Assembly: GCF_003385775.1 (NCBI RefSeq)
Contig: NZ_QRDP01000004.1
Location: 1,978,957-2,042,956, forward strand
DNA: 64,000 nucleotides
Source: Parasphingopyxis lamellibrachiae
GTDB taxonomy: Bacteria; Pseudomonadota; Alphaproteobacteria; Sphingomonadales; Sphingomonadaceae
Reading direction: 5' to 3'
The notes below the pieces were generated by a model. It saw nothing but the letters and a program-made list of their open reading frames with translations. It was not told the origin of the DNA and did not search any database. The position numbers were made by a program, and so were the translations under genes. Within the stretch, counting starts at the first letter, position 1. Each line of letters opens with the position of its first letter. This document shows positions 10,561 through 27,880 of the stretch, piece by piece.

Positions 10561-11319
10561 CTAGCTGCAACGCAGCGCGCCCGATCCGATCGCGCTTGAC
10601 CGGCATTGCGCCCCGCCGCGCACCGTTACGTCGCCCGACCCGATAAAGGAGGCTTCGACGTTTTCGGTTACATAGGCTTCGACGTCGCCTGAACCCGCGA
10701 TACTGACATCAAGGGTCCGGGCGCGGAATTCTCCGGCCGCCACATCACCGGAGCCGGCAATATCCAGTTCGATGCTGTCCGCCGTCCCGGCAACGCTGAG
10801 ATCACCAGAGCCGGCGATTTCAAATGCGGCGCGATCGGTTTGAAGAGACTGGATCGCTATATTGCCCGAGCCGGCAATAGAGGCTTCGAAACCCTGCGAA
10901 GCGAACTGGCCGACATCCATGTCACCGGATCCAGCCAAGGAAACACCGTTTAGGCCGGGCATCACGATCGAGATGGTGGCCGGCCTGTGATCGGGACGCC
11001 TCCAGCGGCGCCTGTCGTGATCGTCGCGATAACCGATCCGCAAAGTACCGTTCTCGACCGTCAGTTCCAGCTCGTTGAGTATCTCTGCATGGCCCTCGGC
11101 GCGGATGGAGAAAACAGCACCTTGCCTGATTTCAACGGTATCGGGCGTCGCCAATGAGACCCGGGCGAAGCCGGACAGATCATAGTCCCGGCGCGTTTCC
11201 GTGGCGGCCACGCGCCTTTCGGCCTGATCGTCACCGGGCGCGGCCCGGCTTTCCTGTGCTGCACTGTTCGTGCACCCGATCAGCGCGGCAACGCCCAATC
11301 CATAAGCTATAACTCGCAT
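10561..11319 (-). CDS. DUF2807 (head-GIN domain) lipoprotein, copy A
   Basis: This is a 252-residue envelope protein. The lipobox ALIGC near residue 16 indicates lipidation. The C-terminal half repeats AGSGD/AGSGN about every 18-20 residues, the pattern of the DUF2807 right-handed beta-helix, and it ends CRSSAIGSGALRCS, suggesting a disulfide. It has the same architecture and ending as the next gene and is clearly a tandem paralogue. GGGAGG precedes the ATG at good spacing. The biological role of this family in Gram-negative bacteria is not established. Confidence 0.8.
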   Translation of the reverse strand: MRVIAYGLGVAALIGCTNSAAQESRAAPGDDQAERRVAATETRRDYDLSGFARVSLATPDTVEIRQGAVFSIRAEGHAEILNELELTVENGTLRIGYRDDHDRRRWRRPDHRPATISIVMPGLNGVSLAGSGDMDVGQFASQGFEASIAGSGNIAIQSLQTDRAAFEIAGSGDLSVAGTADSIELDIAGSGDVAAGEFRARTLDVSIAGSGDVEAYVTENVEASFIGSGDVTVRGGAQCRSSAIGSGALRCS

Positions 11320-11416
11320 GCCAACCTCCCTGTTCGCAGGGACGATCAGTACGGCATAACCCCAATTACGACAAGTGCCGTTTATCGATTGCCTGATGGC
11401 GTTGGTCGGATTGCCA

Positions 11417-12139
11417 CTAGCTGCAGCGCATTTCGCCGGAGCCGATCGAGTTCGACCGGCAATCGGCGCCGCCGCTCACACGAACATCCCCGGACCCGAT
11501 CAGGCTGCCGCTTACAGTCTCGGTTGCGAAAATCTCGACACTGCCGGACCCGGCGATATCGACATCGGCGCGTTCGACCCGAAGTTCCGCGGCTTCGACA
11601 TCGCCCGATCCGGCGATCCCGATTTCCAGATCGGCAACGGTACCGGCCACGGTCATGTCGCCCGAACCGGCAATATCGAATTCGGCCCGCGCCGCCTCGA
11701 GTGCGGCGATCGCCATGCTGCCCGACCCCGCGATCGAGGCTTCGAAATCATCCGACGCCGCACGGGCAATCTGCATGTCTCCCGAACCGGCAAGCGACGC
11801 GCCGTTCAGAACCGGCATGGTGATATGCACCGTGGCCACGCCCTCGTTTATCGTAATTCCATGACTGCTTTCGCGTCCGATCCGCAGCTTTCCATTGCGA
11901 ATTTCGAACTCGACCCTGGCCACGACATCGTCATCCCCTTCGACCCGGATGTCGAATTCGTCGCCCAGGGCGATCACGACATTGTCGGGCCCTCGCAGCG
12001 ATACAGAATCGAATTCCTCCAGGGTCAGTTCGGCAAGCGACTGTCCGTTGGACAGACCCGAGTCCCTGCCACCCATCTCAACCAGCGGCCCGCATGCCGC
12101 CAGTGCCAATGCCGAAAGCGATACCAAAAGCGCGCGCAT
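11417..12139 (-). CDS. DUF2807 (head-GIN domain) lipoprotein, copy B
   Basis: This is a 240-residue lipoprotein with lipobox LALAAC and the same series of AGSGD/AGSGS repeats. The terminal CRSNSIGSGEMRCS nearly matches copy A. Two Met codons are six bases apart. The second (12139) has AGGAG at normal spacing, whereas the first (12145) is too close to it. The 97-nt gap to copy A suggests a duplicated pair transcribed together or from a similar promoter. Confidence 0.8.
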   Translation of the reverse strand: MRALLVSLSALALAACGPLVEMGGRDSGLSNGQSLAELTLEEFDSVSLRGPDNVVIALGDEFDIRVEGDDDVVARVEFEIRNGKLRIGRESSHGITINEGVATVHITMPVLNGASLAGSGDMQIARAASDDFEASIAGSGSMAIAALEAARAEFDIAGSGDMTVAGTVADLEIGIAGSGDVEAAELRVERADVDIAGSGSVEIFATETVSGSLIGSGDVRVSGGADCRSNSIGSGEMRCS

Positions 12140-12198
12140 CTTCATTCTCCTGACTGTATTGTTTACTTAATACAGCAATGCAGCACGGCTGACAAGTC

Positions 12199-13506
12199 CT
12201 AGCCCTTAGCGTCCGGTTTTGCGGGCACCGCTTCGGAGACATTGCGGATATCGCCATCGCGGTCGATCTCGCCGGCTTCGTCCGCTTCGATCTCCGCATG
12301 ATGCACATGGAGAGGCGCAAATCGCAGCACGAGGAAGCCCACCACACCTGAAAAAGCGGATCCGAGCAGGACACCGATTTTCGCTTCCTCGATCAGCAGC
12401 GCGTTACCTGGAAAAGCGAGGCCGCCGATAAACAGGCTCATGGTGAAACCGATACCGCACAGCATGGCCGTCCCGTAGATCTGCAGCCAGGTGGCCCCGC
12501 GCAGCTTGCCGGCAATGCCGAATTTTACCGCAAGCCAGACGCTACCGAAAATTCCGACCTGCTTGCCTGCGAACAGGCCCAGCGCGATGCCGAGCGGCAG
12601 CGGGGCAAGAATATGTTCGACGCCCATGCCCGAAAGGTTCACGCCCGCATTGGCGAAGCCGAAAATGGGCACGATGAAAAAGGCGCTCCAGGGGGTTATC
12701 GCATGTTCCATCTTGTGGAGCGGGCTATCCACGGCATCGGGCGCGCCCGGCGTCTTGGTGATGGGTATCAGCATCGCCGCGAGCACCCCGGCAATTGTCG
12801 CGTGGACGCCGGACAGCAGCACACAATACCAGAGCAGGATCGCCAGCAGGATATAGGGCAGCAGGCGCTTAACCCCGGTGGCATTCAGATAATACATGAC
12901 GCCGAGGACGATCGCCGCGGCGAAGAGCCAGATCGTGGCCAGCGATGGCGTATACACCAGCGCGATAATCGCAACGGCGCCCATATCGTCGACGATCGCA
13001 ACGGTCACGAGAAACAGCTTGAGCGATGTCGGCGCACGCTTGCCGAGCAGCGCCAGCACGCCAATCGCAAAGGCGATATCGGTCGCCGCGGGGATCGCCC
13101 AGCCATTGGCCAGTTCCGGATAGTCCCACGTGAAAAAGAGGAAGATGATGGCGGGCACCGCCATGCCGGCAGCAGCAGCGATAATCGGCAAGCGGCGCTT
13201 TTCCCAACTCGACAGGCGGCCGTCGACAAATTCGCGCTTGATCTCGAGCCCGACGAGAAAGAAGAATATCGCCATCAGCCCGTCATTGATCCACAAATGG
13301 AGCGACATAGGCCCCAGTTTGCTTGTCAGTTCAGGGCTGAAAATCGGCCCCATATTGTCATGCAGGATATGGTGATAGGCATCGTACAAACTGCTGTTGG
13401 CGACCGCCATCGCCAATATCGCCGCCACCATAAGAACGATGCCGCCAGCGGCCTCGCTTTTCAGAAAAGTGCGCAACGCAGATCGGACACCCAAACGTTC
13501 AGCCAT
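12199..13506 (-). CDS. nhaA: Na+/H+ antiporter NhaA
   Basis: NhaA exchanges protons for sodium across the inner membrane and supports pH and salt homeostasis. It has 435 residues and about twelve membrane segments. The conserved functional region is present as AATDIAFAIGVLALLG and VAIVDDMGAVAIIALVYT, which contain the essential aspartates. A hydrophilic, acidic C-terminal tail (about 40 residues) goes beyond the E. coli length. ATG 13506 is chosen because GAGGGAG lies upstream; the frame extends 30 codons further without a family match. Confidence 0.94.
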   Translation of the reverse strand: MAERLGVRSALRTFLKSEAAGGIVLMVAAILAMAVANSSLYDAYHHILHDNMGPIFSPELTSKLGPMSLHLWINDGLMAIFFFLVGLEIKREFVDGRLSSWEKRRLPIIAAAAGMAVPAIIFLFFTWDYPELANGWAIPAATDIAFAIGVLALLGKRAPTSLKLFLVTVAIVDDMGAVAIIALVYTPSLATIWLFAAAIVLGVMYYLNATGVKRLLPYILLAILLWYCVLLSGVHATIAGVLAAMLIPITKTPGAPDAVDSPLHKMEHAITPWSAFFIVPIFGFANAGVNLSGMGVEHILAPLPLGIALGLFAGKQVGIFGSVWLAVKFGIAGKLRGATWLQIYGTAMLCGIGFTMSLFIGGLAFPGNALLIEEAKIGVLLGSAFSGVVGFLVLRFAPLHVHHAEIEADEAGEIDRDGDIRNVSEAVPAKPDAKG

Positions 13507-13665
13507 ATTCACTCCCTCTTTGGCGCCTTGCTCTAATGGGTAATGGGGGCGATGAAAACCGTCATGAGTCGCTGCTGAGCCCCTTTTGCCTAACATCTTC
13601 CGTAGATTGGCTTTTCATCGTATAGACACGGATAACGCTCATGGGGGTACGAGCACGGGGGGAGC

Positions 13666-15060
13666 ATGCAGGGGGGCGGACTGCTATTGGAGCTTGCCGG
13701 ACTCGCTTTTCGCGAGCTGGCCCTGTTCGCCGCCTTCGGATTTCTGCTCGGGGCGATCGACACGCTTGCGGTCGACTTTTTGTGGTTCTGGCGAACCATC
13801 CGGCGCCGGGCGGCCCGCCGCGACGGGAAACGGCAGTACCTCGCCGACCTGCCACCGGCCAAGCGCCCCGGCGGTCATGCGGTATTCATCCCGGCATGGG
13901 ACGAGGCTTCCGTTATCGGGCCAATGCTGGAAAACACAGCCCGGCGCTTTGTGGCGCAGGATTGCGTGCTCTTCGTTGGCTGCTACCCGAACGACCCGGA
14001 TACGATCGCCGAAATCGAAGCCGTCGCAAGCCAGGTTTCCACTATCCGGACGGTCGTGTGTCCCAACCCCGGCCCGACAACCAAGGCCGATTGCCTCAAC
14101 GCCCTTTGGGCAGAGCTGGAACGCGAAGAATGGCGCACAGGCCGGCGCTTCAAATCAGTAATCCTTCATGATGCCGAGGACGTCGTGCACCGGGCCGAGA
14201 TCCCCTTGTTCGACAGGCTCATCGACCATCACGATCTCGTTCAGATTCCCGTGATCGCTTTACCGGATGCGCATTCGCCCTGGATCGCCGGCCATTATTG
14301 CGACGAGTTTGCCGAAGCGCATGGCAAGGATCTGGTGGTTCGCGACAGTCTTGGCGCGGGCGTACCTTCGGCCGGTGTGGGCTGCGCGATTTCCCGACAG
14401 GCGCTCAGCAGGCTGGCGCATGAGCGCGGCGGTCGTCCGTTCGATGCCGACAGCCTGACCGAAGATTATGAGCTTGGCCTGTCGCTGGCCGAGAATGGCG
14501 GGTGCGGAACCTTCATGCGCTGTTACGACAAGCGAACGAATGCGTTGATCGCCGTCCATGCCCATTTCCCCGGGACGCTGAGCGAGGCCGTAAGGCAAAA
14601 AACGCGCTGGATCGCCGGGATCGCCCTCCATGGATGGGACAGGCTCGGCTGGCATGCGGGTATTGCAGACCTCTGGATGCGCGCCCGCGACCGCAGCGCC
14701 ATCCTGGCCTCGATGATATTGCTGGCCGCCTATCTTGCAGCCATTCTGGGATTCGGACTGCTGATCGCAACCGCCACGACGCCATACGCCCTGCCCGAGA
14801 TGCCACCCGTCCTCACCTATATCCTCATCGCCAATTTCTGGCTCTTGCTGTGGCGACTGGCCGTCCGCGCAAGTTTCACCGGCTATTGCTACGGCTGGCG
14901 CGAAGGATTGCGGGCCATACCGCGCGCCCTTGTCTCGAACATCATTGCAATGATGGCCGCCCGGCGGGCCATGACCCGCTATATCTTCGCCCGGCGCGAC
15001 GAACCCCCGATATGGGATAAAACGCAGCACACCTTCCCGGATACCGCCGCCCTGCAATGA
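13666..15060 (+). CDS. NfrB-like membrane glycosyltransferase (GT2)
   Basis: This is a 464-residue inner-membrane glycosyltransferase. An N-terminal membrane segment (about residues 16-40) precedes a GT2 catalytic domain with FIPAWDEASVIGPMLEN, the acidic HDAEDVVH motif, TEDYELG and the QxxRW-type RQKTRWIAG. C-terminal membrane segments follow. This arrangement is that of NfrB, which in E. coli works with the outer-membrane NfrA to make and export an exopolysaccharide used by phage N4. It lacks the extra C-terminal cyclic-di-GMP-type domain of E. coli NfrB (about 745 residues). GGGGGGAGC precedes the ATG, and the next gene overlaps by 4 nt. Confidence 0.78.
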   Translation: MQGGGLLLELAGLAFRELALFAAFGFLLGAIDTLAVDFLWFWRTIRRRAARRDGKRQYLADLPPAKRPGGHAVFIPAWDEASVIGPMLENTARRFVAQDCVLFVGCYPNDPDTIAEIEAVASQVSTIRTVVCPNPGPTTKADCLNALWAELEREEWRTGRRFKSVILHDAEDVVHRAEIPLFDRLIDHHDLVQIPVIALPDAHSPWIAGHYCDEFAEAHGKDLVVRDSLGAGVPSAGVGCAISRQALSRLAHERGGRPFDADSLTEDYELGLSLAENGGCGTFMRCYDKRTNALIAVHAHFPGTLSEAVRQKTRWIAGIALHGWDRLGWHAGIADLWMRARDRSAILASMILLAAYLAAILGFGLLIATATTPYALPEMPPVLTYILIANFWLLLWRLAVRASFTGYCYGWREGLRAIPRALVSNIIAMMAARRAMTRYIFARRDEPPIWDKTQHTFPDTAALQ

Positions 15061-16145
15061 TCCGCTTCACCCCGCCTGTCCGCTTTGTCGCCTCCGTCCT
15101 GACACTCTGGATCGGCTTGCGGATAATATTCTGGACCCCCGCCGATATTCCGCAAAGGCTCCTCCAGATGCCCAATCCTTTCCTGCCGGGCCTGCCTGCC
15201 CTTCCGGCGTTCGGCGCACTGAGCCCGGATGAGGCGGGCGGCGCACCCGGCGCACGCGAGCCGCACCAGACGACAGCGCCGGGCGCGCGCCATGCGCAGC
15301 CGCCGACGCTCTATCCGAAGCGCGTGTTTGCCGTAGCGCGCCAACCCCGGGGTGAACGCTGCGGTGCCAGGTGTACGCGCATGCTGCTCGCTGCGAATAT
15401 ACCGCCGCTCAGCCAGGCCATGCTGATGCGTTTTGCCCGGCGCCGGTCCGGCATCCCGCCCGGCAGTCGGCTGGCGACGCAGGCAAATCCGGCCTTGCCC
15501 CCCGCATTCAGCCTTTCGGCATGGGCGCAATGGCGTTCGGGCGACGGGATCGGTGCGCTGGCCGATGACGGGGAATTGGGCGGCAGCCAGGCGGGAATTG
15601 CCGCCCGCTACCGGGTCTGGCGCGGCGCCGGTGCAGAGGCGGCGCTGGCCGCGCGCCTGTCCCGCCCGATCGACCATGGGAACGGAGCGGAAGCGGCCAT
15701 CGGCATTGCGCTGCGCCCGGCCGAACGGATACCCGTCGAGCTGATAGCCGAACGGCGGATCGGACTGGACGATGGCGGGCGCGATGCCTGGTCCCTGGGC
15801 ATTGCAGGCGGCGTCTACCGACAACCCCTGCCGTTGGGCTTCGAACTGGACGGCTATGCCCAGGCCGGGATTGTCGGCGCCCGGCGTCGCGATTTTTACG
15901 GCGATGCCGCGCTGGTCGTCTCGCGGCCCGTGCCGCTTTCGGAGCGCAGCACGCTCTCGATTGGCGGCGGCGTCTGGGCGGGCGCGCAGCCCGGCGCCTC
16001 GCGCGTCGACATCGGCCCCGAAGCCAGTGTCCGTCTTCCGGCCGGCGATGGCGGCATCCGGCTTTCGCTGAGCTGGCGCGAGCGCGTCGCCGGGTTCGCC
16101 GCCCCCGGCTCGGGACCGGTGCTGGCACTCGGTGCCGATTTCTAG
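15057..16145 (+). CDS. NfrA C-terminal-like outer-membrane beta-barrel
   Basis: This is a 362-residue protein overlapping the glycosyltransferase by 4 nt. After one hydrophobic segment near the N-terminus and a Pro/Arg-rich linker, residues from about 145 form alternating strands (AWAQWRSGDGIGALADDGELGGSQAGIAARYRV) and end VLALGADF, as in an outer-membrane barrel. The strand region resembles the C-terminal domain of the bacteriophage N4 receptor NfrA. The TPR body of E. coli NfrA is missing. It is likely the export partner of the GT2 enzyme. Family assignment is from context and pattern. Confidence 0.62.
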   Translation: MIRFTPPVRFVASVLTLWIGLRIIFWTPADIPQRLLQMPNPFLPGLPALPAFGALSPDEAGGAPGAREPHQTTAPGARHAQPPTLYPKRVFAVARQPRGERCGARCTRMLLAANIPPLSQAMLMRFARRRSGIPPGSRLATQANPALPPAFSLSAWAQWRSGDGIGALADDGELGGSQAGIAARYRVWRGAGAEAALAARLSRPIDHGNGAEAAIGIALRPAERIPVELIAERRIGLDDGGRDAWSLGIAGGVYRQPLPLGFELDGYAQAGIVGARRRDFYGDAALVVSRPVPLSERSTLSIGGGVWAGAQPGASRVDIGPEASVRLPAGDGGIRLSLSWRERVAGFAAPGSGPVLALGADF

Positions 16146-16214
16146 AATGAATCCGTTCATCCGCGCAGACTCTACCTTCCGCTTCCCCGCCAAAATCGGT
16201 AGGCCGGGCACAGC

Positions 16215-17129
16215 ATGGATATTTACCTTCCTATCGCTGAAATCTCCGTCAACGCCCTCGTCATCATCCTGCTTGGCGGCGTTGTCGGGATATTGTCCGG
16301 CATGTTCGGCGTCGGCGGGGGATTCCTGACCACGCCGCTGCTGATCTTTTCCGGTATTTCCCCCGCAGTGGCTGTCGCCTCCGCCACGACGCAGATCACC
16401 GGGGCCAGCGTTTCGGGCGTCGCCGCGCACGCCCAGCGCAAGGGCGTCGATTTTCGCATGGGCGGCGTATTGATCGCGGGCGGCATAGTCGGAACGATCG
16501 CCGGCGGCTTCCTCTTCCTGCAATTGCAGCAGGCCGGGCAGGTGGATGTCGTGGTCGCCATTCTCTATATCATCCTGCTTTCCGGGATCGGCGCGCTAAT
16601 GGTCCGTGAATCCTGGACGGTGATCCAGGCGCGGCGCACCGGCATCCCCATCAAACCGCCCGTTCGCCGCCATCATCCCGTGGTCGCCGCCCTGCCCCTG
16701 CGTTGGCGGTTTTACGGATCGGGGCTCTACATCTCGCCGCTTGCACCGTTCGGTGTCGGCTTTCTTGTCGGCACCCTGACGGTGATGCTGGGCATTGGCG
16801 GCGGGTTCGTCCTTGTTCCCGCCATGATCTATCTGCTCGGCATGTCGACCCGGGTGGTCGTCGGCACATCCCTGTTCCAGATCCTGTTCGTCGCGGCGGC
16901 CACCACCATGGTCCACGCCCTGACCACGCAGGCGGTCGATATCGTTCTCGCCATATTGTTGCTGCTCGGCAGCGTGACCGGCGCGCAGATCGGCGCGCGG
17001 CTTTCCACGCGCATCAACGCCGAATGGCTGCGGCTATTCCTGGCAGCATTGTGCATTCTGGTCGCGGTTCGCATGGGCCTGGGCCTGGGTTGGCGGCCCG
17101 ATGAAATCTACTCGATCCAGATCACATGA
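16215..17129 (+). CDS. TSUP family anion exporter (TauE/SafE)
   Basis: This is a 304-residue inner-membrane protein with about eight membrane segments. It shows the duplicated TSUP motif: GMFGVGGGFLTTPLLIFSGIS in the first half and LTVMLGIGGGFVLVPAMIYLLGMSTRVVVGTSLFQI in the second. TSUP proteins move sulfite, sulfoacetate or related anions. The TIGR02186 gene overlaps its end by 4 nt, a pairing I recall from other alphaproteobacteria. The substrate cannot be read from sequence. Confidence 0.88.
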   Translation: MDIYLPIAEISVNALVIILLGGVVGILSGMFGVGGGFLTTPLLIFSGISPAVAVASATTQITGASVSGVAAHAQRKGVDFRMGGVLIAGGIVGTIAGGFLFLQLQQAGQVDVVVAILYIILLSGIGALMVRESWTVIQARRTGIPIKPPVRRHHPVVAALPLRWRFYGSGLYISPLAPFGVGFLVGTLTVMLGIGGGFVLVPAMIYLLGMSTRVVVGTSLFQILFVAAATTMVHALTTQAVDIVLAILLLLGSVTGAQIGARLSTRINAEWLRLFLAALCILVAVRMGLGLGWRPDEIYSIQIT

Positions 17130-17887
17130 ACAGGCTGGGCATCCTCCTTTTTCTGGCGCTCGTGCCGATGCTGATGGGACAGGCCCGGCCCCGGCTCGTC
17201 CCCGCAGTCGATCAGGAGCAGATCGAGATCATCTACAGCTTCACCGGTGCCGAGCTGATGGTCTATGGCGCGATTCTGTATCCGAACGGGCGCGTGCCAG
17301 ACGAGCCTGTCGATATTGTGGTCGTCCTCAAAGGCCCGGAACAATCGATCCTCGTCCGCGAGAAGCAGCAGCGCATGGGTATCTGGATGAATGTCGCCCA
17401 GGCGCGCTTTCGTTCGGCGCCGGCCTTTTATGCGCTGGCCAGCGCACGCCCGATTGACGAGATTGTCGATGAGCGGACGGCCGCCATCTACGAGCTGGGG
17501 ATAGACAGCCTGCAATTGTCGCCGGCCAGCGCCAATCCGCCCGAAGAGGCACAGCGCTTCGACGAGGGCCTTGTCGACCTGAGGGGGCGCGGCGGCCTGT
17601 ATGTCGAGCAGCTGGACGCGGTCGAGGTTACCGAGGGCGTGTTGTACAATGCGCGGATCGACATTCCCGCCCGTGTGCCAGTCGGCGAATATACCGCAGA
17701 AACTTTCCTGATCCAGAATGGCCGAGTGCTGGCCGGCGAAGTCCGGGATATCCGGATCACCAAATCGGGATTCGAGCGGTTCGTTGCCACAGCGGCGGCC
17801 GAACACGGCTTTCTCTACGGCCTTGCTGCCGTTCTCGTCTCGCTGCTCCTCGGGTGGCTCGCGGGCATCCTTTTTCGGCGAATTTGA
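17126..17887 (+). CDS. TIGR02186 family (Alph_Pro_TM) membrane-anchored protein
   Basis: This is a 253-residue protein with a signal peptide (residues 1-19). Its periplasmic beta-rich body contains the family-typical IEIIYSFTGAELMVYGAI and the Arg/Asp-rich VVLKGPEQSILVREK. A single C-terminal membrane helix (LYGLAAVLVSLLLGWLAGILF) ends in RRI. The family is restricted mainly to Alphaproteobacteria and is usually next to a TSUP transporter, as here. It may be a periplasmic accessory to the transporter; that role is inferred. Confidence 0.82.
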   Translation: MNRLGILLFLALVPMLMGQARPRLVPAVDQEQIEIIYSFTGAELMVYGAILYPNGRVPDEPVDIVVVLKGPEQSILVREKQQRMGIWMNVAQARFRSAPAFYALASARPIDEIVDERTAAIYELGIDSLQLSPASANPPEEAQRFDEGLVDLRGRGGLYVEQLDAVEVTEGVLYNARIDIPARVPVGEYTAETFLIQNGRVLAGEVRDIRITKSGFERFVATAAAEHGFLYGLAAVLVSLLLGWLAGILFRRI

Positions 17888-24575: not shown

Positions 24576-24914
24576 ATGACCTATGTCGTCACCGATGCCT
24601 GTATCAAATGCAAATATATGGATTGCGTGGAAGTCTGTCCCGTGGACTGCTTCTATGAAGGCGACAATATGCTCGTCATCCACCCGGCCGAATGCATCGA
24701 TTGCGGCGTGTGTGAGCCTGAATGCCCGGCCGAAGCCATCCTCCCGGACACGGAGCCGAACCAGGAAAAATGGCTCGAGCTGAATACCAAATTTGCCGAG
24801 GAATGGCCCAATATCACGCAGAGCCGCGAAGCCCCCGAAGACGCGGACGAGCATAAGGGCGAAGAAGGCAAATATGAGAAATATTTCTCACCGGAACCCG
24901 GCCAGGGCGATTGA
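24576..24914 (+). CDS. fdxA: 7Fe ferredoxin FdxA
   Basis: This is a 112-residue electron carrier with the [3Fe-4S]/[4Fe-4S] cysteine pattern: [17 protein letters not shown] in the first cluster region and [12 protein letters not shown] in the second. The C-terminal acidic extension is typical of FdxA. GGGAG lies ten bases before the ATG. It closes the helicase-S4-ferredoxin series and faces the minus-strand peptide-modification cassette. Confidence 0.96.
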
Positions 24915-24959
24915 TCGCCTGGAGGAATTCCGGCCTGAGACACAGGCTGGCAACCGGCT

Positions 24960-25625
24960 TTAGTAGATATCGCGCAATTTCTGGTTGCTCGCGATAATCT
25001 CTTCGAGCGCTGTTCCGCCTGCCGCCTCGGCGAGTCCCGTGAAATCGATCCTGACGGCCCTGAACCGGGCATATTGCAGCTTGCTCGCTTCCAGCGCCGT
25101 TTCATAGGCGAGCTCGAACAGCGTCTTGCCCTGATTCGGTCCACTATCGACGATCTTGCTGCCTTCGGCCGATTTGGGGCTGTCCTTGTTGAGCTGACTA
25201 TGGGTCGGCGCATTCGGCCCGCACAGCTTGGGCGAGCCGATCCACCAGGTGCCGCTGACAATGGCCTCGGGCAGGCTGGCGAGCGTCTGATCCCATACCG
25301 GGACCGGCGACTGGCCCTGATGCAGCTCGATCCAGTTGGAATGGGCGTAGAAATCCTGCGTCGTATGGAGCAGCGCGCCGAACGCACCGAGCGCGCTATC
25401 GGCATATTTGTCGCCGACCGTGTCGATCACCGCCCATTCGGCGGCCAGATGGTCGATCCCGCCCGGAAAGTCGCAATTGTCGAAATGGACCTTGCTCTGA
25501 GTCTGTAGCAGATCCTGCGCAATATTGGCGGCCACGACATAGGCAAGCTGCGTCGTATCGAGCACGCCGTCATTCGCCTCGGAGGTAAGCTCGCTGTGAT
25601 AGCCGATATCGAACTGGACGCTCAT
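24960..25625 (-). CDS. Het-C-like protein, third gene of the peptide-radical SAM cassette
   Basis: This is a 221-residue protein whose middle matches Het-C proteins: VHFDNCDFPGGIDHL, then LGAFGALLHTTQDFYAHSNWIELHQGQ. The conserved His/Asp set resembles the helical zinc phospholipase C/P1-nuclease fold to which Het-C is related, so metal binding is plausible. No signal peptide or membrane segment is visible. The start ATG 25625 has AAAGGAG upstream. It lies 31 nt after the radical SAM gene on the same strand, which argues for co-transcription. Het-C takes part in fungal incompatibility; its bacterial role is poorly known. It could process, bind or be protected from the modified peptide. Confidence 0.68.
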   Translation of the reverse strand: MSVQFDIGYHSELTSEANDGVLDTTQLAYVVAANIAQDLLQTQSKVHFDNCDFPGGIDHLAAEWAVIDTVGDKYADSALGAFGALLHTTQDFYAHSNWIELHQGQSPVPVWDQTLASLPEAIVSGTWWIGSPKLCGPNAPTHSQLNKDSPKSAEGSKIVDSGPNQGKTLFELAYETALEASKLQYARFRAVRIDFTGLAEAAGGTALEEIIASNQKLRDIY

Positions 25626-25656
25626 CGCGCTCTCCTTTCGCCATTGCGGCGCTCTG

Positions 25657-27039
25657 CTAATCGAAAAAGGGGCCGCCGCAATGCGGGTCCTTGGCCAGAT
25701 ATTTGCCGGTCGCGTTATAGGCATCGACAAAACAGGAGGTGCGGCACTGATAGAGCTTGCTGCATTTGGCGCAGTCCGGGTCGATCAGGTCGGGCTGGAC
25801 AGTGCGCTCGCGCAGATCGGCAAAGGCTTCACCGTTCCAGATCGCCTCAAGCCCCCGGTCGAAGACATTGCCATAGGTGAAATCCTTCACCCCGTGCATC
25901 TTGTCGCACACCGATACATCGCCGGTCGGGAAAATCGACATGCCCATATTGATCCCACCGCACGGATACCAGTCACCGTCCTTCCAGACTTTTTCGGCAT
26001 CCTTCGGCGGATGGATATCACACGTGCCCGCATAGAGTTCGCGCTTCGCCTGGACCCGGTCGCGAACAATACGCAACTCGTCCATCGATACATTGTCGGC
26101 GGCGTTGGCGCCGGACTCGATCGCCCCGCCTTCCATGAAGGAAATGCCGATCTCATGGACGCCCATCGTTACCAGCATGTCGATCATCGGCTCGACCGAA
26201 TGCTGCGTCCTGGGCGTCAGCACGCTTTTTATCACCACGCGAAGCCCGGCATCGACCAGATAGCGGACAGCGTTGAGCACTTTCGGGAACTGGCCTTTTG
26301 ACCGGGTAATCTCGTCATGCAGTTCGGCCGAAGGCGCATCGAAGCTGATCGTGATTTCCTCCATGCCGGCCGCCGCGAGACGCTGAGCGATCTCCGGATC
26401 GCTGCCGATCACCGTTCCGTTCGAGGTCATGGTCGGGATCATGCCGCGTTTCAGCCCGGCCTCGATCAGTTCGAGCCAGCCCTTGAAGATCGTCGGTTCG
26501 CCGCCCGTCAGCCCGAGAAACACCACGCCCCAGTCGGCCGCTTCCTCGACCAGTTCGCGGCACTTGCCGAGATCCCAGCGATTGTCGCCGGTCTGGAGCA
26601 GATCCTGATAGCAATAGGAGCAGTTGAAATTGCACTTGAAGGTGAGAGTCACATTGATGCCTGCCGGCACCGGCCATTTGCCATAGGCCGCGCCGTCAAT
26701 CTTGCCCTTGTCGCCCGGAAAGAGGAAGTCCTGCGGACTGAACCGGACAGCCTCTCCGGGTTCACCGCCAAAATCCAGGAACATGCGGTGCTGGTCGAGC
26801 AGGCGGCTCGCCTGATAATCCGCATCGTCCGCGTCCAGGCCAAAGGTCTCGCCGTAAAGATAGGCGATTTCGGCCGGCCGGAAGGTGCCATTGCACAGGG
26901 CCAGGAAAAAGGCGTGGGACGGGTCGATCATCCGGATCAGAGACGGATGATAGCCATGGGCCAGCGCATAGCCGTTCATCGGCTTCAGCCGCACATCGGA
27001 TTTCAGTGCGGGGATAAAATCATTCTGCTCGATGCCCAT
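25657..27039 (-). CDS. Radical SAM/SPASM peptide maturase with N-terminal PqqD-like segment
   Basis: This 460-residue enzyme has three parts. Residues 10-85 resemble a PqqD-like peptide-recognition winged helix (VRLKPMNGYALAHGYHPSL, then IDPSHAFFLALCNGTFRPAEIAYLY). The radical SAM core has C136-x3-C140-x2-C143 (CNFNCSYC) and LTGGEPT. The C-terminal SPASM domain has the full seven-Cys pattern: C360-x12-G-x4-C378, C423-x2-C426-x5-C432-x3-C436 and C454. Such enzymes make thioether, C-C or ether cross-links in ribosomal peptides. ATG 27039 has GGAGG upstream. A 60-codon Cys-bearing peptide gene precedes it by 128 nt, the likely substrate. Confidence 0.88.
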   Translation of the reverse strand: MGIEQNDFIPALKSDVRLKPMNGYALAHGYHPSLIRMIDPSHAFFLALCNGTFRPAEIAYLYGETFGLDADDADYQASRLLDQHRMFLDFGGEPGEAVRFSPQDFLFPGDKGKIDGAAYGKWPVPAGINVTLTFKCNFNCSYCYQDLLQTGDNRWDLGKCRELVEEAADWGVVFLGLTGGEPTIFKGWLELIEAGLKRGMIPTMTSNGTVIGSDPEIAQRLAAAGMEEITISFDAPSAELHDEITRSKGQFPKVLNAVRYLVDAGLRVVIKSVLTPRTQHSVEPMIDMLVTMGVHEIGISFMEGGAIESGANAADNVSMDELRIVRDRVQAKRELYAGTCDIHPPKDAEKVWKDGDWYPCGGINMGMSIFPTGDVSVCDKMHGVKDFTYGNVFDRGLEAIWNGEAFADLRERTVQPDLIDPDCAKCSKLYQCRTSCFVDAYNATGKYLAKDPHCGGPFFD

Positions 27040-27167
27040 GGTCCATGCCTCCTGAACGCTTGCCGTCGGGGCACGCATTGGGATCGGCAGTTCCCCGCAC
27101 GCGACCTGACAATGGCTGATGATTGGGCCGGCGGCGCACCGGCTGGCGCGCGCCGGACCGTTATGTT

Positions 27168-27350
27168 CTAGAGCGGTTGCACCTGGATACAGGTGGACAG
27201 CACGTTCCAGCAGCCGGATTCGCATCCGACGGCTTCCTCGCCGGTTTCAAGCCGGCTGGCGCGCGCTTCGGCGCGATCGGCTTCCGCACGCAATTGCTGT
27301 GCGAGGCCTTTGAGATAATCGGGTTGGTGAAGATGTCCTGCATTGGCCAT
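27168..27350 (-). CDS. Candidate RiPP precursor peptide
   Basis: This 60-residue peptide starts at ATG 27350, with AAAGGAGA at ideal spacing. Residues 1-36 form an Ala/Arg/Glu-rich helical leader (LKGLAQQLRAEADRAEARAS). After GEEAV the C-terminal core is GCESGCWNVLSTCIQVQPL, with Cys43, Cys47 and Cys54 and a Trp beside Cys47. No metal-binding or folded domain is apparent. The layout (charged helical leader, short Cys-rich tail, radical SAM/SPASM gene immediately downstream) is that of a precursor to a radical-SAM-modified peptide. I do not recognise the family. A structural or regulatory micro-protein remains possible. Confidence 0.75.
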   Translation of the reverse strand: MANAGHLHQPDYLKGLAQQLRAEADRAEARASRLETGEEAVGCESGCWNVLSTCIQVQPL

Positions 27351-27370
27351 TGGTCATTCTCCTTTTGGGT

Positions 27371-27880
27371 CAGACTGTCCTGTCAAAGCTCCGCCCTGCC
27401 GGCACACAGCCAGCATTTTCACGGAACCGGTCATTTCAAGCAAATCAACGCCTACTATACGCAACAATACATGTTTCAATGCAGTAATACCTGCATATTA
27501 TAGTACGACTCGTCAGTGCCAATATTGTGGTTTCCGCCCCCAATCGAGTCAATCAACGGGCGGCCCGAACGGCGGGAAAGCTGATCCGTTTCCGATCATC
27601 TTGCGCTTGATGGCGCGGCAACGGCCCGGCACCCGGCGAGTCCCTGCGCCTCCGGGCGAAACGCCCGATCGACGTACACAGGCGCCCGGCCGCGCCATGC
27701 CGCAGCGCAACACTGGAAATTTTCTTACGAATGTGTTACATAATGTCGCGAAGCGGGAATAATTAGTTCCGCAAATGGTCTAACACACGGAAAAGGCTGA
27801 TAAAATCGAAAATGCAGTGAGGGTCGGCAACGGTCTTCTGCACGATTCGCACGGCTGTCCGTCAAGAAAGGTCTTACTGC
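27371..27880. promoter_or_regulatory. Divergent intergenic region between the peptide cassette and carD
   Basis: This is about 510 bases without a convincing gene. The segment 27440-27520 is markedly AT-rich and must hold the promoter for the minus-strand peptide-radical SAM-Het-C operon. TGCAG (27480-27484) and CTGCA (27491-27495) form a small palindrome there. The carD-proximal end has AAAGG before the carD ATG. A plus-strand open frame crosses the region but lacks coding character. I cannot place -35/-10 boxes with confidence. Confidence 0.45.

Follow-up and report, generated by a model that had tools for sequence, protein, structure and literature searches.

A rare three-gene cassette of Parasphingopyxis lamellibrachiae is very probably a minimal RiPP system of an uncharacterized family

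Why should a gene of only 60 codons stand ahead of a radical SAM enzyme gene and a Het-C-like gene in Parasphingopyxis lamellibrachiae? A sequence-only reading of the 64,000-nucleotide stretch analyzed here (the window) had taken the three, arranged as a minus-strand tandem, for an undescribed peptide-modification cassette, and both the trio and the ribosome site of its small first gene were borne out. The first gene (27168–27350) runs from an ATG at 27350, preceded by AAAAGGAGAATGACCA, to a stop codon ending at 27168, and encodes a 60-aa peptide. It is followed after 128 bases by the gene for a 460-aa radical SAM/SPASM enzyme (25657–27039) and, after a further gap of 31 bases, by the gene for a 221-aa Het-C/VWA7_N-like protein (24960–25625, with its ATG at 25625). 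A purine-rich ribosome site precedes all three genes. The likely start of the enzyme is the ATG at 27039, which has AGGAGG upstream and aligns with the starts of its relatives; a 522-aa ORF from 27225 was rejected as an over-extension on the same alignment. By Pfam, the flanks are ordinary: on one side lie a ferredoxin gene (which we take to be FdxA-like) and a gene with an S4 domain, on the other genes for a CarD-like regulator and for a short-chain dehydrogenase.

The two features that had been ascribed to the enzyme, a seven-cysteine SPASM domain and a PqqD-like N-terminus, both held up. Pfam places Radical_SAM (4.8e-24) and SPASM (8.7e-10) above their cut-offs, and the cluster ligands, which comprise the CxxxCxxC motif at residues 136–143 (C136/C140/C143) and the seven SPASM cysteines at residues 360–454 (C360, C378, C423, C426, C432, C436, and C454), are invariant in 13 aligned rows, the window included. 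At the N-terminus Pfam gives no PqqD match. Five records were fetched for comparison, four of which supplied a PqqD protein and the fifth of which lists no pqqD; aligned by hhalign to the profile of these four, the first 110 residues scored 28, with a probability of 44–49 and an E value of ~2e-4 for one comparison, against at most 18.4 in 200 column shuffles and at most 14.02 in eight of nine control segments; the ninth, at 28.1, was the same N-terminus again. This modest match suggests that residues ~7–85 form a PqqD-like domain. An AlphaFold model of the enzyme built from ten sequences was modest to weak (pLDDT 54.7, pTM 0.56), and its best PDB matches by Foldseek were SkfB (E 4.6e-10) and SuiB (E 6.8e-10), both of which are RiPP maturases.

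These likenesses stop short of identity with a known system. PqqE was the first match of the enzyme in a PDB sequence search; however, the PqqD-like domain is fused to the enzyme rather than separate, no pqq genes were seen beside the window cassette in the ORF list or by Pfam, and the precursor is presumably unlike PqqA. In maturases of the SkfB/SuiB/CteB type, as in the cassette, an N-terminal domain that binds the leader (putatively so in the cassette) is fused to a radical SAM domain and an auxiliary-cluster domain, and a small precursor gene adjoins, a layout of RRE-bearing radical SAM maturases that is described in excerpts of PMC8326336. The identity of the cassette enzyme to SkfB and SuiB is nevertheless only ~15–18%, and the precursor is different. 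Core cysteines together with an RRE and a SPASM/twitch enzyme also recall the ranthipeptides and sactipeptides (SCIFF, NxxcA, freyrasin, and SKF), but SCIFF has a six-cysteine pattern, whereas the window peptide carries three cysteines and any thioether in it is putative. The claim that no characterized family is involved was upheld: of the 79 NCBIfam models that the enzyme hits at E ≤ 1, the best 25 all lie far below cut-off, and the peptide resembles no family convincingly, its best E values being 0.15 in Pfam and 0.057 in PHROGs, with no match at all in NCBIfam or PADLOC.

Relatives of the cassette are few. Searching 72,556 plasmid records with the enzyme by tblastn gave 70 matches at E ≤ 1e-15; among the best 20 of these, six are rhizobial and 59–64% identical, and the 14 others are 24–27% identical. 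When 84,980 species genomes were scanned, ten related loci emerged; the scan required either of two peptide patterns and will have passed over more distant relatives. Their enzymes are 76% (Sphingomonas pokkalii), 71% (Afifella marina), 66% (A. pfennigii), and 61–64% (six rhizobial genomes) identical to that of the window, and the tenth is a degenerate enzyme-gene remnant with in-frame stops in Bradyrhizobium sp. Ai1a-2 (L053:979-1525). Close enzyme matches were confined to the window's own genome among 347 genomes of the family (E ≤ 1e-60) and among 296 of the order (E ≤ 1e-80). In a class sample of 385 genomes, 16 others matched at E ≤ 1e-20, all at less than 30% identity, and in a set of 60 relatives nothing beyond the window's own copy exceeded a match of 26% identity (77 bits). 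No relative turned up in the viral contigs scanned, and on these a viral home was rejected. From these plasmid, species-genome, family, order, class, and viral-contig scans we conclude that the system is rare and patchy. Cassette copies sit on plasmids of nodule isolates; in one related locus (L043) the enzyme frame is broken into two annotated pieces. In the enzyme tree, the ten rhizobial copies used form one clade (100/100) apart from Afifella. With a distant outgroup and support of 86/53 at the following fork, its rooting is uncertain, and the tree gives no direction, gain or loss, for the Het-C-like gene.

If the small gene encodes a precursor, it should recur upstream of the enzyme's homologues with its cysteines conserved, and on these two points the sequence-only reading had staked itself. 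The first holds throughout nearly the whole set: of the 16 related loci, 15 have a relative of the peptide upstream of the enzyme, 14 of them by tblastn at E ≤ 0.01 and one (L040) by a leader-only match (E 0.02). The Bradyrhizobium remnant gave no peptide match by tblastn, and because its contig begins ~200 bases before the expected start of the enzyme, the peptide could lie off the contig end. The second point stands in part. All three core cysteines are kept in 10 of the 16 peptides, window included (class A), which have in common the core C-x-x-G-C-W-N-x-L-S-T-C-I-x-x-Q-(P/Q)-(L/I) and include the identical or near-identical pairs L038/L039, L041/L052, and L047/L050. Five others (L042, L043, L048, L049, and L051), whose enzymes, so far as tested, fall into one clade, preserve the leader and carry another tail, RRPDWPGCWNTKxISxNCTEH, which aligns just one of the three cysteines; the L040 peptide retains the leader and has lost the core. 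We judge that the reading survives this variation.

The peptide of the window has a charged, helical-looking leader with LHQPDYLKGLAQQLRAEADRAEARA, ending near residue 38 by eye, and the core CESGCWNVLSTCIQVQPL, and it is 68–86% identical to the nine other class A peptides beside enzyme orthologues. A comparison of eight class A genes revealed purifying selection on the peptide, which together with this identity speaks against a chance ORF. Values of dN/dS were 0.07–0.22 in 14 pairs, of which three have dS > 2 and are nearly saturated; 13 further pairs were saturated at synonymous sites, and L047/L050 differ by no amino-acid change. For the window gene against its counterparts in L044–L046, dN/dS was 0.07–0.11. 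In the last 18 codons, pN (to two decimals) was lower than over the aligned 57 in 24 of the 28 pairs, equal in three, and higher in one, the pairs not being independent. The conserved precursor, the PqqD-like domain, the radical SAM and SPASM domains, and the co-occurrence of the genes across genomes make a RiPP-like reading the best one, in agreement with what had been proposed. We therefore hold it very probable that the locus is a minimal RiPP cassette, consisting of a 60-aa precursor and a radical SAM/SPASM maturase with a PqqD-like domain, and we judge that it represents a real, uncharacterized RiPP family.

Chance can place unrelated genes in tandem on one strand, and the three genes might be neighbors and nothing else. 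The same order of genes in four genomes, in three of which (L044–L046) the window's neighbors carD and fdxA are not beside the cassette, leaves this explanation with a negligible likelihood. Nine same-genus genomes were searched, and eight (all except G007) have the fdxA-like locus. The spacing between the fdxA-like and carD-like genes is 221–570 bases in six of the eight, ~1.1 kb in L068, and cut by a contig end in L067, against 2966 bases in the window. Similarity to the same-genus relatives ends near 24910–24919 (a side on which one of the six, L065, has no match) and restarts near 27679–27713, so that a stretch of approximately 24919–27690 is missing from the relatives. This near-empty site in six relatives suggests that the cassette arrived in the window's lineage, with loss elsewhere as the alternative. 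Composition gives no foreign mark, because the G+C content of the inserted stretch is 60.4%, compared with 61.9% for the window.

The upstream part of the inserted stretch (27351–27690) is the presumed promoter region. It contains weak sigma-70-like matches on the minus strand at 27552–27524 and 27522–27495, and three promoter-like matches were observed there compared with 1.1 (sd 1.0) in shuffles. A candidate regulatory dyad, ATGCAGGTATTACTGCAT, was rejected as a conserved element, since it occurs in the window alone among 12 upstream regions. Elsewhere in the window's genome there is a second ferredoxin-like copy (L087, G000:C2:4348-4677), 60% identical, with one TGA in the matched stretch.

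The third gene had been read as encoding a Het-C-like protein, and this was confirmed in part. Pfam assigns VWA7_N (PF25107) at 4.4e-12, with 46.3 bits against a cut-off of 27.5, whereas Het-C itself (PF07217; E 0.007) reaches 15.4 bits against 21 and stays below cut-off. The Het-C motifs given in excerpts of PMC3482391 are H, D/E, HxD, HxxxDxxxH, NxxD/E, and S/T-G, and by eye we assigned each of them in the cassette protein, as H10, D19/D23, H47xD49, H87xxxD91xxxH95, N97xxE100, and S124G125, all invariant in four rows. The same excerpts predict a metal site like that of phospholipase C and P1 nuclease for Het-C, from borderline profile matches. The HET-C treated in excerpts of PMC10197012 is of the glycolipid-transfer type and is distinct from the protein considered here. 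In contrast to Het-C/VWA7_N proteins otherwise, the cassette protein is short (221 aa), stand-alone, and placed beside a radical SAM enzyme. No signal peptide was obvious by eye. We predict that it is a metal-dependent hydrolase and a very rare one: at E ≤ 1e-5 it matched its own genome alone among 299 genomes of the phylum, and a scan for VWA7_N in 289 genomes of the class detected it in that same genome alone, with none among 14 control genomes.

The hydrolase could itself be the active agent, with the modified peptide switching it on or restraining it inside the cell. The invariance of the motifs is consistent with this proposal, as is the position of the gene, which directly follows the enzyme gene in all four loci that have it (the window and L044–L046, from Sphingomonas pokkalii and two Afifella), where the proteins are 66–70% identical. 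However, four of 17 loci is the full extent of its occurrence, and the gene is therefore not obligatory. Within the fetched DNA it is absent from all 13 rhizobial loci, 12 of which keep the enzyme and the peptide or its leader. The sole match to the protein among the 72,556 plasmid records, in Scytonema, is weak (29%) and has no radical SAM gene among its listed neighbors; the fold model is poor (pLDDT 49.7), Foldseek found no match to it at E ≤ 0.001, and four sequences are a small sample. We consider such an effector pair unlikely. Two invariant cysteines of the Het-C-like protein (C51 and C135, in four rows) would fit a different arrangement, in which this protein is the substrate that the enzyme modifies and the small ORF serves as a regulatory leader. 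This is very improbable, given that the rhizobial loci have enzyme and peptide without the Het-C-like gene, that the peptide is conserved at the amino-acid level along its length, and that the enzyme carries a PqqD-like domain.

Other partners were sought by comparing ORFs of at least 70 aa across the window stretch and 16 loci, counting as shared those present in at least three loci across clades. The shared set consists of the peptide, the enzyme, the Het-C-like gene (four loci), and one ABC-ATPase-like gene, which lies in varied places, kilobases off, in L045, L046, L050, and L053. None of the genes conserved beside the cassette in the window or the 16 loci encodes an exporter, an immunity protein, or a peptidase. 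Single loci have candidates that are not conserved: in L044 an aminopeptidase-P-like gene ending ~0.7 kb upstream of the peptide and in L046 ABC-transporter genes 2–8 kb away (both by eye), in L042 an annotated S8/S53 peptidase 2.4 kb downstream, and in L043 an annotated MFS transporter ~4 kb downstream. That the product is a sactipeptide or ranthipeptide secreted as an antimicrobial is doubtful; the three-cysteine core and the PqqD-like/SPASM enzyme do resemble the thioether systems in excerpts of PMC8326336, but no conserved export or immunity gene accompanies the cassette and even distant hosts show an unusually constant core. Both this proposal and the effector pair are functional sub-cases of the RiPP cassette and leave that reading in place.

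Several observations concern individual flanks. The Ensifer/Sinorhizobium class B copies L048, L049, and L051 (positions ~11100–17374) have long conserved flanks in common, some of them also found in L040, and by eye the translations resemble what we take to be type III secretion genes. Upstream of a Mesorhizobium peptide (L038:1-5092) are tyrosinase-like, LodA/GoxA-like, and FAD-oxidoreductase genes. The latter two were rejected as cassette partners, as they have no match among the loci except in L038/L039; for a small ORF that separates the two, L052 contains a relative at 50% identity. A second cassette, unlike the first, lies on the Rhizobium sp. CB3171 plasmid (L042:1020-4227), with a 77-aa peptide ending GCDSCTVCPCMICW and two radical SAM genes. 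A role in anti-phage defense was also rejected, the sole similarity being to viperin-like radical SAM.

How might the RiPP cassette work? The enzyme would recognize and bind the leader through its PqqD-like domain, abstract a hydrogen atom from a residue of the core at its radical SAM centre, and close the bond with the help of the SPASM clusters, giving one or more radical cross-links in the core CxxGCWNxLSTCIxxQPL. The three conserved cysteines make thioethers our first guess, and we give these most likely cross-links about an even chance. Carbon-carbon or other bonds based on tryptophan or cysteine are possible alternatives, a tryptophan-based bond because W48-N49 is conserved. A general host protease may cleave the modified peptide. 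Because the core is constant and no export or immunity genes are conserved, we prefer a product of fixed structure, such as a signal or a cofactor-like molecule, to a fast-diversifying antibiotic. Where it is present, the predicted Het-C-like hydrolase may act with the product, by processing it, sensing it, or being controlled by it. A more specific version, in which the modified peptide governs the hydrolase of its own operon as a built-in switch or antidote, and rhizobia have the peptide arm alone with an altered core in one clade, strikes us as quite unlikely; nothing of the kind, a modified peptide acting as switch or antidote of an intracellular hydrolase, was found in the literature searched.

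That literature covers few subscription papers or bioRxiv preprints; within it the core strings were not found, and Het-C is absent from the 20 matches listed, of 34, for its pairing with radical SAM, SPASM, or RiPP. Judging by titles and the openings of abstracts among the matches listed, work on Het-C and phospholipases, rhizobia, Sphingomonas, Alphaproteobacteria, and Afifella does not describe the cassette. What the locus offers is a compact, testable system of two or three genes, whose precursor is without a convincing match in the four family collections searched. The short core varies little among Sphingomonas, Afifella, and several rhizobia, so that a single co-expression could reveal its chemistry. 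The Het-C-like partner ties a domain of cell-death and toxin systems (excerpts of PMC3482391) to peptide modification, and the plasmid copies in nodule isolates invite the question whether the cassette plays a part in life with plants.
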